The notes under the pieces are model-generated. The model searched no databases, had not been told where the DNA came from, and worked only from the letters and a program-made list of their open reading frames with translations. This document shows positions 30,745 to 36,214 of a stretch of DNA of 37,553 bases, one piece after another. The stretch is taken from positions 1-37,553 of the IMG/VR virus record IMGVR_UViG_3300005577_000380; one strand, written 5' to 3'. This DNA comes from a virus. Each line of letters begins with the position of its first letter. Positions within the stretch are counted from its first letter, which is position 1. The translations under genes were made by a program, and so were the position numbers.

Positions 30745-30773
30745 AGTATGCACCCACTGGGATACCAGCGCAA
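30745..30773 (-). promoter_or_regulatory. Candidate leftward promoter with CTGGTATCC motif
   Basis: On the minus strand TTGCGC (30768-30773) and CATACT (30745-30750) are separated by 17 bases, and the -10 element matches TATAAT at four positions. The first half of the spacer carries CTGGTATCC (30760-30768). The same nine bases occur at 31345-31353 in the repeat-rich region upstream of the HxlR-type gene. The shared motif could be a regulator's binding site. Confidence 0.5.
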
Positions 30774-30812
30774 GCCCTCACCACCGAAAATCGGCATCGA
30801 CCCGAAGTTCGG

Positions 30813-30950
30813 CTAGCCGGCCAGCGCCCGTTGCAGTCCCGCCACCTCATCGGCTGTCATGATTCCGACGTAACTGCTCGACAGCATCCAGTCTGCCCAG
30901 CGTGAGAGCTGGCTAGAGGTAGCTCGGGGGTTGAGGTAGGGCGAGGTCAT
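30813..30950 (-). CDS. 45-residue hypothetical protein
   Basis: ATG 30950, one base after the HxlR-type gene stop, to TAG 30813. GGAAAGG lies about ten bases upstream. The product is SPYLNPRATSSQLSRWADWM followed by LSSSYVGIMTADEVAGLQRA and a stop. Close spacing and a ribosome binding site support translation with the regulator gene. Too short for standard cutoffs. Function unknown. Confidence 0.55.
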   Translation of the reverse strand: MTSPYLNPRATSSQLSRWADWMLSSSYVGIMTADEVAGLQRALAG

Positions 30951-30951
30951 A

Positions 30952-31263
30952 TCAGTCTACCTTTCCGATAGGGTTACCCGGATGCGCGCGCGGGAGAGGG
31001 GCTTGATTCGACCACCCCATGACCGCCACCGCTTCGTCCGTAACGCTGTAGGTTACGCATAGGGGCCCTACACCAGAGCTATCTATCCTGCTCACAAGAC
31101 CGGCATCAGCCAGCTCAACGAGAGTAGCTGACAACATACGTTTAGAGCACCCTAGCACCAGTCTATTCAGCTCATTGAAGCGACGGGGGCCAATTTCCAA
31201 AACGCCCAGGATGGCTAGCGCCCATCGCTGCCCAAGCAACACGTGCAGTTCCTTATTCGTCAT
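30952..31263 (-). CDS. HxlR-type winged-helix transcription regulator
   Basis: 103 residues, ATG 31263. The HxlR layout is clear. GQRWALAILGVLEIGPRRFN is the first helix pair, NRLVLGCSKRMLSATLVEL contains the recognition helix, LADAGLVSRID leads into the wing, and LCVTYSVTDEAVAVM closes it. These proteins bind palindromic sites as dimers. Inverted repeats lie just upstream of the gene (31290-31303 and 31306-31420), so autoregulation is likely. HxlR regulators are bacterial in origin and unusual in a small podovirus; it may have been acquired from the host. The C-terminus is Pro-rich (APLPRAHPGNPIG). Confidence 0.82.
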   Translation of the reverse strand: MTNKELHVLLGQRWALAILGVLEIGPRRFNELNRLVLGCSKRMLSATLVELADAGLVSRIDSSGVGPLCVTYSVTDEAVAVMGWSNQAPLPRAHPGNPIGKVD

Positions 31264-31289
31264 TAGTAATTCTTAGCATACTAGTGGCA

Positions 31290-31303
31290 CACGGTAAACC
31301 GTG
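31290..31303. repeat. 14-bp perfect inverted repeat upstream of the HxlR-type gene
   Basis: CACGGT-AA-ACCGTG is a perfect inverted repeat with a two-base centre. It lies 26 bases upstream of the HxlR-type start. On the minus strand TATGCT, the best -10-like hexamer before that gene, follows 12 bases further on. The position suits an operator for autoregulation. Confidence 0.6.
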
Positions 31304-31305
31304 CA

Positions 31306-31420
31306 GGTGGTATCGGCCGACTGGAGTATCGGTGGTATCCGTATCTGGTATCCACCCTAAAGGGTGGAATACCAGTACTCCAGTATCCGGTACTACCCAA
31401 TACCAGTACGGTACCAGCCA
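31306..31420. repeat. Repeat-rich non-coding region: nested inverted repeats and GGTATC-type motifs
   Basis: No gene lies here. An inner stem, CTGGTATCCACCC (31345-31357), pairs with GGGTGGAATACCAG (31362-31375) around TAAA, with one bulged A. An outer stem pairs ACTGGAGTA (31320-31328) with TACTCCAGT (31376-31384). Direct repeats: GGTGGTATC at 31306 and 31331; AATACCAGTAC at 31368 and 31399; further GGTACCAG at 31410. The arrangement lies right behind the RepA-like helicase gene and upstream of the HxlR-type gene. It could be a replication origin with iteron-like sites, an operator array, or both. Confidence 0.7.
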
Positions 31421-32608
31421 TCAGAATAACTCCCCCGGGCCGAGCTCTTTAACGAGAGCGGAAACATCTAGCCTATAATCATATTTACCTACACGGACCA
31501 GCTCCCCAGCTGTCAGCATAACGTTTACTGTGGCTAGAACTGAGTTTCTGCTCTTCTTGGAAAGAAGCACGATGGCGTTGCCGCTCTTGGGTTCTGGTTG
31601 CTTGGCAAACACGTCGATGATTGCCTTGCGGATGCCGTCATACGCGGATGGCTTGCTTTCGCCATCTAGCGAGCCGTCTACGGGCTTCGGCTTAGCTTTG
31701 ACGGCGACTCCTGCCCGAGGGTCGTCGTCGACGGCTACGTCGAAAATGGAGATGTTAGCGGCGGCATTGGTCGTGCCTCGGTTGCGGGACTTTAGGTGGT
31801 GCAGAACCTTTTGTTCGCCCTGCCCACCTGTAAGAGCAAAAACTGAGGCGCAGGCATCGAACAGAGCCCCGCTGCCGCGGATATCCATGATTGGGTCGGC
31901 CTGTCGGTCGTTCTGTTTCTTCTTGGCGTGGTGAATGACCACGAAGCAGCACCCGGTCTTCTCGCTGACCCTTGTCAGCTTATCGAGCACGAGGCGCGCT
32001 TCCGAATCGTTCTCGTCAACCGTGGGCGAGCAGGCTCGGAAGCTATCGATTATCGCCATAGTGTAGCCAGCGCTGGCTTTTAGCAGGAAGGCCTCAGCAT
32101 CCTGAGCGTCGGCGTAGAATTGGGGCATAGAGACTAGCGTCAGGTTGTCACCTAGGTCAGCGGGCTTGAGACTCATGCCTGCTGACAAGCGCTGATAGCG
32201 CGCTCTGGTTAACCTAGCCCCCTGCTCGTAATCGACGTGCAGGACCTTCCCCTGCTTTACTAGCGGGTATTCGTCCCATACATTACCGCCAGATGCCACG
32301 CTTAGCGCCATCGACTGGGTAAGCATCGTCTTCCCTCCGAACCCATAGCCTGCAATCATGGTCGGAGCTCCGGGACAAATGTCCAAGGCCTCTGTCAGGT
32401 AATTGATTGGCTCGAGCTCACCAAAGATCTCCGGGACGCCCATTGCCGGCCAACGAGCTTTCAGCTCAATTGCCTGCTGCATCTCCCGGGTTTCCCTGTT
32501 TACCTGTCGGATGCGCTCAGCTTCCTCGATAGGTATTACAACGCGCTGGGGAGGTTTTCTTGTTTGCGCATCGATGTCGTAACTGTCGGGATCCCAATCC
32601 TCCGACAT
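31421..32608 (-). CDS. RepA-like hexameric helicase/AAA ATPase
   Basis: 395 residues from ATG 32608 (TGATG overlap). The RecA-like core is clear: Walker A GYGFGGKT (residues 87-94), then VLHVDYEQG (122-130) with a motif-1a acidic residue. Walker B AIIDSF has D188, followed by VVIHHAKKK (223-231) with the sensor His. This is the RSF1010 RepA/AAA_25-type helicase family found in many phages and plasmids. It would unwind DNA at the origin. N-terminal 60 residues are acidic; the C-terminal part (about 310-395) reads as a winged helix (KSRNSVLATVNVMLTAGELV). The small RHH gene directly upstream and the repeats downstream complete a compact replication module. Confidence 0.85.
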   Translation of the reverse strand: MSEDWDPDSYDIDAQTRKPPQRVVIPIEEAERIRQVNRETREMQQAIELKARWPAMGVPEIFGELEPINYLTEALDICPGAPTMIAGYGFGGKTMLTQSMALSVASGGNVWDEYPLVKQGKVLHVDYEQGARLTRARYQRLSAGMSLKPADLGDNLTLVSMPQFYADAQDAEAFLLKASAGYTMAIIDSFRACSPTVDENDSEARLVLDKLTRVSEKTGCCFVVIHHAKKKQNDRQADPIMDIRGSGALFDACASVFALTGGQGEQKVLHHLKSRNRGTTNAAANISIFDVAVDDDPRAGVAVKAKPKPVDGSLDGESKPSAYDGIRKAIIDVFAKQPEPKSGNAIVLLSKKSRNSVLATVNVMLTAGELVRVGKYDYRLDVSALVKELGPGELF

Positions 32609-32775
32609 CACGCCGCAACCTGGCTCTTCTGCTGCCGGCGTACGCGCTTCAGCTTTTCAAGCACAGCCTGACGCAGCGCGTCTACTATGGTCGTATTAAG
32701 GCGAGCGGCTAGCTCCTTAATATGTTCTAAGTCTTCAGGTTTCGGACGAATGTTTAACTGGAGTTGCGGGCGCAT
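32608..32775 (-). CDS. 55-residue RHH (CopG-like) protein upstream of the helicase
   Basis: ATG 32775 to TGA 32608, TGATG-coupled to the helicase. Strand PQLQLNIRPKP is followed by helix EDLEHIKELAARLNTTIVDA and helix LRQAVLEKLKRVRR, the ribbon-helix-helix pattern. Small RHH proteins control replication gene expression in plasmids (CopG type); the same role is inferred here. Too short for standard cutoffs. A TTGACA at 32811-32816 (minus strand) lies upstream of its start. Confidence 0.75.
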   Translation of the reverse strand: MRPQLQLNIRPKPEDLEHIKELAARLNTTIVDALRQAVLEKLKRVRRQQKSQVAA

Positions 32776-33056
32776 TTCGGGAGCATAGGCTTACTGCATA
32801 TGCGCGCAGGTGTCAACATTTCTGCCTCGATTAGTCGCATGTTAGCCCACACGCGCGGCATCCACATTGCTACCACCAGGCGCATGGACAAACGCTACGC
32901 CCCCGTTCTCGTCATCGCCGGCTTCTGGGGTCTCGCTCAGGTGGCCAGATTCTCGCTCGTACTGCGCAAGCTAGGCACACGTGGGCCGCTCGTCGAGCCA
33001 CTGGCGAGGCGCTTACTGTGGACTGTCTCCCGCTCCACAGGGGAGGATAGCCACGG
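32776..33056. other. Gap between the RHH-helicase operon and the SLOG gene
   Basis: A 281-base gap, one of the longest without a convincing leftward gene. It holds the candidate promoter at 32788-32816. A plus-strand frame runs through it to 33060, from ATG 32800 or 32884. Its product would be basic with a hydrophobic stretch (YAPVLVIAGFWGLAQVARF). It has no good ribosome binding site and is antisense to the surrounding operon, so I do not call it a gene. Confidence 0.5.
32788..32816 (-). promoter_or_regulatory. Weak promoter candidate for the RHH-helicase operon
   Basis: A perfect -35 TTGACA (32811-32816, minus strand) has TAAGCC (32788-32793) at a 17-base spacing, a poor -10. A better -10-like TATGCT lies too far downstream. 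The site may need an activator, or it is chance. It is the only TTGACA upstream of the operon in the gap 32776-33056. Confidence 0.3.
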
Positions 33057-33425
33057 CTAGCGAGCCTGATTCTTAGGTACGATGCGCACCGGGATCCCGT
33101 GAGCCACTGCGCGTCTGATCATGTCCAGCGTGCCTGCGCTGCATCCGTCCCAGAATGCTAAGCAAAGGTCAGCCCCGAGCTCCGCCATCCGTAGGTTTCT
33201 AGCCGGTCCTGCGCTCGGGCCTCGAGACCAGTCAGCCGGGTGGCGCTCCTCGATGCAGTGCCCCATTGGGCTATTAGCGAAGCGACTCGCGTAGTAGTCG
33301 GCTCCAGTCGGGCATGCGCCATGGACAATCATCAGCGGCCCCTTTGCGCTTACGAGCTGGTTAAGTCGGACTGAGATGATATTCGGGTCAGCCCAATCTC
33401 TGCAGCCGCAAACGATGACCCTCAC
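33057..33425 (-). CDS. SLOG-superfamily protein of the YAcAr/YspA type (DUF2493)
   Basis: 122 residues from GTG 33425 (GTGA overlap). The fold signatures are visible in order: RVIVCGCRDW at the N-terminus, then IVHGACPTGADYYASRFA. EERHPADWSRGPSAGPARN and LCLAFWDGCSAGTLDMIRRA follow, then GIPVRIV. This is the full-length DUF2493/YAcAr pattern. SLOG proteins bind nucleotides or nucleotide-derived ligands; in phages their role is not settled. It lies in the early block with a zinc-ribbon protein, so a nucleotide-sensing or counter-defence role is possible but inferred. Confidence 0.9.
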   Translation of the reverse strand: MRVIVCGCRDWADPNIISVRLNQLVSAKGPLMIVHGACPTGADYYASRFANSPMGHCIEERHPADWSRGPSAGPARNLRMAELGADLCLAFWDGCSAGTLDMIRRAVAHGIPVRIVPKNQAR

Positions 33426-34553: not shown

Positions 34554-34762
34554 AGGCGCTCCCAGTTCTTCGCGATCCACTCCTCGTGAAACCCTGGTGG
34601 CTCGCCATGCATTCGCAGGCTGGCCTCGCACCCGGCACACTTAGTCATTTTAGACACGCGCGACCTGTAGATATTGCGCTTGAAATGCAGGATACACCAT
34701 CGCCGCTGAAGGACCCACACGCACAGCACGATTGCGATCGCGTTCAGGATTACGTTGCTCAT
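34550..34762 (-). CDS. Small membrane protein with Cys motif
   Basis: 70 residues, ATG 34762, ATGA overlap on both sides. One membrane segment at the N-terminus (SNVILNAIAIVLCVWVLQ) is followed by a basic region (QRRWCILHFKRNIYRSRVSK) and a CxxC pair (KCAGCEASL). It would sit in the inner membrane with the C-terminal part in the cytoplasm. A host-interfering role is possible for an early membrane protein, but nothing shows it. Confidence 0.68.
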   Translation of the reverse strand: MSNVILNAIAIVLCVWVLQRRWCILHFKRNIYRSRVSKMTKCAGCEASLRMHGEPPGFHEEWIAKNWERL

Positions 34763-35232
34763 CTATCCACCTTTACAGCCTCTTTCGCCTTCGCCTGCAG
34801 CCGCTTATGTTCTCTCAGCAAGATACGCTCGACCACGACGGCAGCGTTAGCCGCGTCGCCGCAAAACCACGGGGTTATGCCCCAGTCGCTTGCAGCCGCT
34901 ATCAATGTACCTAGTACCGACAACGGATTGATTCGACTGCGCGACAGGCCAAGTAGCACATCATCCGCGGTGCACTCAATGACCAGGTGGCGCACGGGGA
35001 ATTCGCGCATGCGCTCTAGTTGCGCGATAAAGCGTTCCCTGTCTACGCCGGCACATGATTGGAGCTCGCCGTTACGCTTCCGTTCGATCGCTACATGCGC
35101 ACTCGCTCCGCGGAGGGAGTAGTCGCCGACATGCAGCAGCACCTTTTCGGTCAGCACGGCGGGCGTAAAGCGAAGCGGGATCTGCTCGCGTTGATCGACG
35201 AGAATGCAGGGCAGATCGACAGGGGCCTTCAT
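34759..35232 (-). CDS. ERCC4-type nuclease
   Basis: 157 residues, ATG 35232, ATGA overlap. The XPF/MUS81-type nuclease core is visible: D13 and R15-E16 in ILVDQREQIPLRF, G36-D37 in HVGDYSLRG, and E50-R51-K52 in VAIERKRNGEL. A helix follows (RFIAQLERMREFPVRHLVIE). The canonical ERKx3D motif has Glu in place of the final Asp. Enzymes of this type cut branched DNA. With the annealing protein and helicase, it suggests recombination-dependent processing of replication forks or concatemers. Confidence 0.85.
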   Translation of the reverse strand: MKAPVDLPCILVDQREQIPLRFTPAVLTEKVLLHVGDYSLRGASAHVAIERKRNGELQSCAGVDRERFIAQLERMREFPVRHLVIECTADDVLLGLSRSRINPLSVLGTLIAAASDWGITPWFCGDAANAAVVVERILLREHKRLQAKAKEAVKVDR

Positions 35233-36019: not shown

Positions 36020-36214
36020 ATGAAGACACAGGAAATGTGGAAGCTACAGGTACGGATCACCCCCACCCTTCGCGACCGTCTGCTGGCCCTCTCCGCTTCC
36101 GAGGCTCGCTCGTTGAAGACGATCGCGACCCGGGCGCTCGAGCGGGAGCTGGCGATCGCGGATGTTTCGAGCCAGAAAAGGCCGAAGCGCGAAAAAAAGT
36201 CACGAGGGGCTTGA
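36020..36214 (+). CDS. RHH (Arc/CopG-type) regulator, first gene of the rightward arm
   Basis: 64 residues. ATG 36020 is the likely start, although it lacks a ribosome binding site; a GTG at 36002 is the alternative. Strand MWKLQVRITP and helices TLRDRLLALSASEARS and LKTIATRALERELA form the typical ribbon-helix-helix. A basic tail (SQKRPKREKKSRGA) probably adds unspecific DNA binding. Its divergent position suggests that it controls one or both arms, like Arc-type repressors of other phages. No ORF precedes it on this strand for at least 1000 bases. Confidence 0.78.
   Translation: MKTQEMWKLQVRITPTLRDRLLALSASEARSLKTIATRALERELAIADVSSQKRPKREKKSRGA

Follow-up and report, generated by a model that had tools for sequence, protein, structure and literature searches.

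What is the role of a repeat-rich, 115-base non-coding stretch situated directly behind a RepA-like helicase gene on a phage genome? The stretch lies at 31306-31420 of virus record IMGVR_UViG_3300005577_000380, which was analysed over its entire length of 37,553 bp (referred to here as the window). For most environmental phages, to our knowledge, the site at which replication begins has yet to be located. A preliminary description of this DNA had read the stretch as a possible origin of the RepA type, with an operator array given as the alternative. Comparison with other phages supported the origin reading, because arrays recur behind homologous helicases in many phages that are otherwise unrelated, the hairpin recurs there and, in close relatives, helicase and array are swapped as a unit. 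The stretch thus probably acts in cis as the origin of replication of a helicase-linked cassette, or at the least as the site where its initiator is loaded.

Genome context and features of the locus

Phage G001, a close relative possessing a 127-bp direct terminal repeat, was found to read across both ends of the window with a 6-bp overlap (1 / 37553). This suggests that the record is a nearly complete, circularly permuted phage genome that is unclosed. The features of the locus are as follows, with the strand given where a feature has one.

30951..32687, block swapped for a different replication cassette in G001 (similarity ends at window 32687 and restarts at 30951)
30952..31263, minus strand, HxlR-type winged-helix protein of 103 aa, within the exchanged block
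31246..31290, short A+T-rich stretch adjoining the array (33% GC over 40 bp, among the most A+T-rich of the genome)
31290..31303, additional small hairpin CACGGTAAACCGTG, just outside the array on the HxlR side, absent from the preliminary description
31306..31420, minus strand, repeat array of the TGGTATC / GGTACC / GTACTGG type, directly 3' of the helicase stop codon
31320..31384, outer stem of 9 bp, ACTGGAGTA (31320-31328) / TACTCCAGT (31376-31384), enclosing the inner stem
31345..31375, inner stem of 13 bp identified from the sequence, with bulge A31368 and loop TAAA at 31358-31361
31352..31367, minus strand, central hairpin of 16 bases, reading CCACCCTTTAGGGTGG along the strand of the helicase and CCACCCTAAAGGGTGG along the plus strand, recurring beside AAA_25 helicases
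31421..32611, minus strand, RepA-like AAA_25 helicase of 396 aa (Pfam AAA_25, 2.7e-26)
32611..32778, minus strand, small protein immediately 5' of the helicase, with a weak Pfam match, below cut-off, to an Rv0623-like transcription factor

The early region close to the helicase also contains a SLOG-family (YspA/YAcAr) gene (33057-33425) and an ERCC4-type nuclease gene (34759-35232). On the other side of the locus, a short non-coding or weakly coding block (30757-30889) is 96% identical in the related phage G002; within it, the small palindrome-like sequence GCTGGTATCCCAGC is retained in both G001 and G002.

Structure of the repeat array

The placement of the non-coding stretch between the helicase gene and the HxlR-type gene was borne out. 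Its repeats are oppositely oriented on either side of the central hairpin, the apex of which lies 61 bp 3' of the helicase stop codon, and on the helicase strand the core of the array reads GGTACCGTACTGGTATTGGGTAGTACCGGATACTGGAGTACTGGTATT-CCACCCTTTAGGGTGG-ATACCAGATACGGATACCACCGATACTCCAG. On the plus strand, CTGGTATCCACCC (31345-31357) pairs with GGGTGGAATACCAG (31362-31375). The inner stem and TAAA loop of the preliminary description were thereby recovered, with the correction that the pairing is interrupted by one bulged base; the outer stem was found to pair perfectly. The direct repeats previously described were also present. GGTGGTATC (31306 and 31331) and AATACCAGTAC (31368 and 31399) each occur twice and at no other position on the plus strand of the whole genome, while all three genomic copies of TGGTATC lie within 31306-31420.

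The region ranked top for self-similarity among all 130-base windows of the genome: 43 pairs of its 6-mers are repeats or inverted repeats of each other, against a mean of 5.7 (sd 3.9). None of 1000 shuffles of the stretch matched its score. Folding of the region as DNA gave a z of -5.7 against dinucleotide shuffles and folding of the helicase strand as RNA a z of -4.3, with 0/200 shuffles equal in each case. An Rfam search of the region returned nothing, and a nucleotide search of the whole region against cultured phages gave no match.

Exchange of helicase and array among close relatives

Phages G001, G002 and G003 share 82-98% protein identity with the window for the terminase and portal. 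The block exchanged in G001 comprises the helicase gene, the array and the HxlR gene. In its place, G001 carries a gene for a D5_N-type primase/helicase (L014:6082-7512). Behind this gene is non-coding repeat DNA, in which three copies of CAGTGCA and three of the inverted TGCACTG flank an A+T-rich centre; this array ranks first for repeats within its own 10-kb locus. A VapE-like protein followed by GAGCACAC repeats was identified in G002, and in G003 three GATGCAGG-type repeats come after a replication-module protein for which Pfam gave no match. As the other replication genes of these relatives are each trailed by their own repeats, the array travels with the replication gene: it accompanies that gene, and each gene type has an array of its own. 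The preliminary description had held that absence of the repeats from related genomes would count against an origin; they were not absent, the close relatives having different repeats at the same place and distant relatives having the same layout.

The site is also a hotspot of replication-cassette exchange, with four closely related phages carrying four unrelated modules (AAA_25, D5_N, VapE-like and unassigned) between conserved flanks (window 30951-32687 against L014:5596-7772, L003:1-1156 and L004:4860-6600).

The same layout beside homologous helicases

Helicase scans of viral and genome contigs using the window protein alone found no relative, nor did a scan of genome contigs using an alignment. 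Relatives with 33-44% identity to the window helicase were obtained from viral contigs using two-sequence alignments. For L022, L027, L028, L031, L032 and L035, the top self-similar stretch was located immediately 3' of the helicase stop codon. The repeat is not the same in any two of them (AGTACC, AACTGTGGTGG, CCGTTCC, AACTGCTTCCC, CGGTTCC, CCTCCC), and all six also have a GC hairpin, the small apex of which is mostly A/T-rich. The array of L029 lies 466 bp 3' of the helicase stop and that of L033 lies 5' of the helicase gene, with an array 3' of the AAA_25 gene missing from L030, L017, five actinophages, MW202711 and MW202444. The layout was also identified in cultured phages (Salicola CGphi29, Alteromonas PB15, Idiomarinaceae 1N2-2, Roseobacter CRP-811 and CRP-406) and in Manatee Spring record MW202867. 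Across the window and its relatives, a large stem-loop 3' of the replication gene is conserved in layout and not in sequence.

Twenty-five AAA_25 loci, the window included, were picked by protein homology alone, and the top repeat stretch fell within -40..+350 of the helicase stop in 15 of them (Poisson-binomial P 1.2e-11), L113 being a tie and L110 weak among these positives. When restricted to IMG/VR loci with the window left out, 6/10 had the top stretch behind the stop (P 1.9e-6). The fold of L109 was no better than shuffles (z -0.9), with most other loci folding better than shuffles.

The arrays of PB15 and 1N2-2, two phages that are related, can be aligned with one another. GGTTCA occurs 13 times and GGTACA not at all in PB15, while 1N2-2 has 11 copies of GGTACA and one of GGTTCA. 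That dispersed copies differ in concert is best explained by their recognition by a protein that changes alongside them.

L023:5062-5520, situated behind a helicase of 31% identity, may be a divergent form of the element: its GTCTCA-TAGTTAAAC-like repeats lead into a very long G/C hairpin with a stem of 14 bp.

Search with the hairpin sequence

The CCC-TTTA-GGG core of the window hairpin was also found on the helicase strand of L029, L035 and CRP-811, and the exact 16-mer CCACCCTTTAGGGTGG was consequently used as a probe against 2.9 million viral contigs. This resulted in 71 stretches, which were examined with a helicase profile built without reference to the hairpin, and an AAA_25 helicase was found adjoining the hairpin in 31 of these. 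For 19 of the 31, the hairpin was situated 33-104 bp 3' of the helicase ORF (on the coding strand in 18 of the 19). For the remaining 12 (group B, namely L046, L058 and ten similar loci), it was situated 5' of a gene for an AAA_25 protein of 375-378 aa, on the opposite strand and beside TTAGTCC repeats, indicating a shift or inversion of the element with respect to the gene; the gene still lies on the 5' side of the hairpin in these loci. Clustering at 50% protein identity sorts the 31 loci into six groups, with 15 loci in a single group, and they thus represent far fewer than 31 independent events. Pfam AAA_25 was confirmed in representatives of every group except L062, which is a fragment.

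The repeats around the constant hairpin were found to vary by group (GTTACC, GTACCCC, TTAGTCC, CGTCCCA). Judged from the sequences compared, the repeat units vary among phages while the hairpin core CCC-TTTA-GGG is often constant. Most of the remaining hits had no array, in keeping with chance matches to the 16-mer, and a few had an array on a contig with a remainder too short for a helicase. In the open-access literature searched, no paper was found for the 16-mer and no description of repeat arrays behind AAA_25 helicases.

The helicase and candidate binding proteins

For the predicted core of the window helicase, the structure that matched best was that of RSF1010 RepA, at Z 23.4 and an rmsd of 3.0 over 231 residues; the helicase possesses the AAA_25 / RecA-fold ATPase core of RepA-like replicative helicases. 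This match reaches approximately residue 322, beyond which lies a C-terminal extension (~322-391) that is absent from RSF1010 RepA. As the PDB structure alignment mainly covers residues 57-313, it says nothing on the fold of the extension. The extension is poorly conserved (~15% identity, compared to 23-69% over the helicase core). In a model based on a multiple sequence alignment it was predicted to form three helices and two strands, and its profile matched mostly winged-helix proteins, with the MarR family among the best at E 7e-4. Pfam matches of the extensions of relatives were below cut-off and mostly winged-helix, with none obtained for the window. When the last 80 residues were modelled from the single sequence, the structure had modest confidence and was not winged-helix-like. 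No correlation between repeat sequence and C-terminal domain similarity was found across families (Spearman 0.04), the test being crude and the repeats too divergent for it.

On the basis of the alignment-based model and profile, the winged-helix-like C-terminal extension of the helicase is most likely to be the part that binds the array. Two other proteins are candidates, one being the product of the small gene 5' of the helicase and the other the HxlR-type protein, which may act as a regulator or as a second array binder. The helicases of relatives were found fused to Prim-Pol or Toprim domains (Prim-Pol in L022 and L029), with no Prim-Pol in that of the window. Among the window proteins scanned (a subset of ORFs, using Pfam and PHROGs), no primase and no RepC or RepB' homologue was recognised.

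Alternative explanations

The operator array suggested previously would be bound by HxlR or another regulator and have no part in replication. The array does lie upstream of the HxlR gene and on the strand of that gene, HxlR proteins are themselves regulators of the winged-helix class, and a dimer would be well matched by inverted GTACT/AGTAC-like elements. However, the array is not kept beside an HxlR gene in relatives: G001 and G002 have no intact adjoining HxlR gene, the G003 homologue lies ~680 bp from the helicase and apart from the repeats, and distant relatives retain the layout and hairpin with other genes downstream. Furthermore, no sigma-70 promoter was recognisable at the array, and a constant hairpin with changing repeats beside one type of helicase is not expected of an HxlR operator. 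This alternative is weakened by these findings and is considered unlikely. A terminator, attenuator or RNA element ending the helicase message would agree with the stable RNA fold of the helicase strand and with the position immediately after the stop codon, but it appears highly improbable. No intrinsic terminator was recognisable at the array, the hairpin being without a T-tract; such an element has no need of multiple inverted DNA repeats, the concerted change of which points to recognition by a protein; and in group B the hairpin is 5' of the gene on the opposite strand. In pRN1, a terminator behind the replication gene was dispensable while the larger stem-loop was not (PMC4234260).

Cumulative GC skew, proposed earlier as a check on the location of the origin, did not point to the array, and this partly agrees with what the preliminary description had named as evidence against an origin here. 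The minimum falls at 36100, a distance of 4.7 kb from the array, and is conserved in G001, which would suit a true origin at ~36.1 kb with the array acting as an accessory site (e.g. for priming, regulation or copy control). Nevertheless, 36.1 kb is near a switch in gene orientation that shapes the skew, so GC skew is confounded with gene orientation here. The region is also absent from the top repeat stretches, and it is the array, not the 36.1-kb region, that is swapped together with the helicase gene. An origin at ~36.1 kb is accordingly regarded as quite improbable. Separately, the skew minimum (36100) and maximum (10180) occupy matching places in the window and G001 despite their different cassettes, and the maximum at 10.2 kb falls within a long minus-strand gene with no orientation switch there.

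A protelomerase/telomere-type palindrome was rejected on two counts, namely the asymmetry of the hairpin apex and the lack of a protelomerase among the proteins scanned. A rolling-circle origin was set aside, with no nickase recognised.

Proposed mechanism and implications

Under the preferred reading of the array as an origin, a sequence-specific DNA-binding domain would bind the repeats flanking the central hairpin. This domain would most likely be the winged-helix-like C-terminal extension of the helicase, encoded by the gene directly 5' of the array, and its binding would lead to the assembly of helicase rings. The hairpin, with its GC stem and small A/T-rich apex, may then open or extrude, providing single-stranded DNA for helicase loading and/or priming. 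The A+T-rich stretch at 31246..31290 is a possible unwinding region.

The recurrence described above could reflect a widespread class of phage origin, in which SF4 RepA-type helicases with their own winged-helix extension are paired with phage-specific inverted iterons and a near-invariant CCC-TTTA-GGG hairpin; we hold the existence of this class to be evenly balanced. Within it, recognition of the repeats would evolve fast, with the hairpin remaining fixed, perhaps as a priming or helicase-loading signal for common machinery. If true, an origin could be predicted from an AAA_25 helicase together with phage-specific short repeats in both orientations and a nearby CCC-TTTA-GGG-type hairpin, a rule that could be applied to many uncultured phages and to several marine phages in culture. 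A mechanistic question would likewise become testable, namely whether a ring helicase of the DnaB/RepA class can be its own origin-recognition protein, as has been described for D5-, SF3- and P4-type initiators and not for RSF1010 RepA.

Comparison with known replication systems

RSF1010 RepA is the closest solved helicase fold (Z 23.4). The iterons of RSF1010 are bound by a separate protein, RepC, making the analogy inexact; in addition, RSF1010 RepA has no C-terminal extension, and no RepC/RepB' was recognised among the window proteins scanned. The RSF1010 origin combines iterons with small hairpins (ssi) (PMC4234260).

A closer likeness in layout was found with SaPI Rep and SCCmec Cch2. According to PMC7581432, these proteins use a C-terminal domain to bind iterons directly downstream of their own gene. 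As in the window, iteron-like, element-specific repeats lie directly 3' of the helicase gene, and a variable C-terminal domain is the proposed binder. The window has the downstream repeat array of such helicase-initiator replicons, but its helicase is of the SF4 / RecA-fold AAA_25 type, not a D5/DUF927/SF3-type initiator, and its array is centred on a constant hairpin. Systems of the SaPI/SCCmec kind most resemble the cassettes of G001 (D5_N) and G002 (VapE-like).

In plasmid pRN1, a deletion construct regains replication when given the 100-nt stem-loop that lies behind orf904, and phage BIP-1 was noted to have a comparable stem-loop after its own replication gene (PMC4234260). Both share with the window a stem-loop directly behind the replication gene, conserved in layout and little in sequence. 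The winged helix at the protein C-terminus of pRN1 has a putative counterpart in the extension of the window helicase, and some window relatives likewise have a Prim-Pol domain. They differ in having an SF3 helicase where the window has AAA_25, the window protein being no Prim-Pol and SF3 helicase of the pRN1 type; the pRN1 stem-loop is moreover described as being without iterons (PMC4234260), while the window hairpin is flanked by repeats. The winged helix of the phage P4 alpha primase-helicase binds origin repeats, as stated in PMC4234260. P4 alpha is not of the AAA_25 RepA type, however, and has its own primase domain, which is absent from the window helicase.

The difference in helicase type places the window element outside the SaPI, P4 and pRN1 families. 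By analogy, it is likely to work as the SaPI/SCCmec, P4 and pRN1 origins do, and at the level of sequence it unites SaPI/SCCmec-like iterons and a pRN1-like stem-loop with a helicase of the SF4 RepA type.
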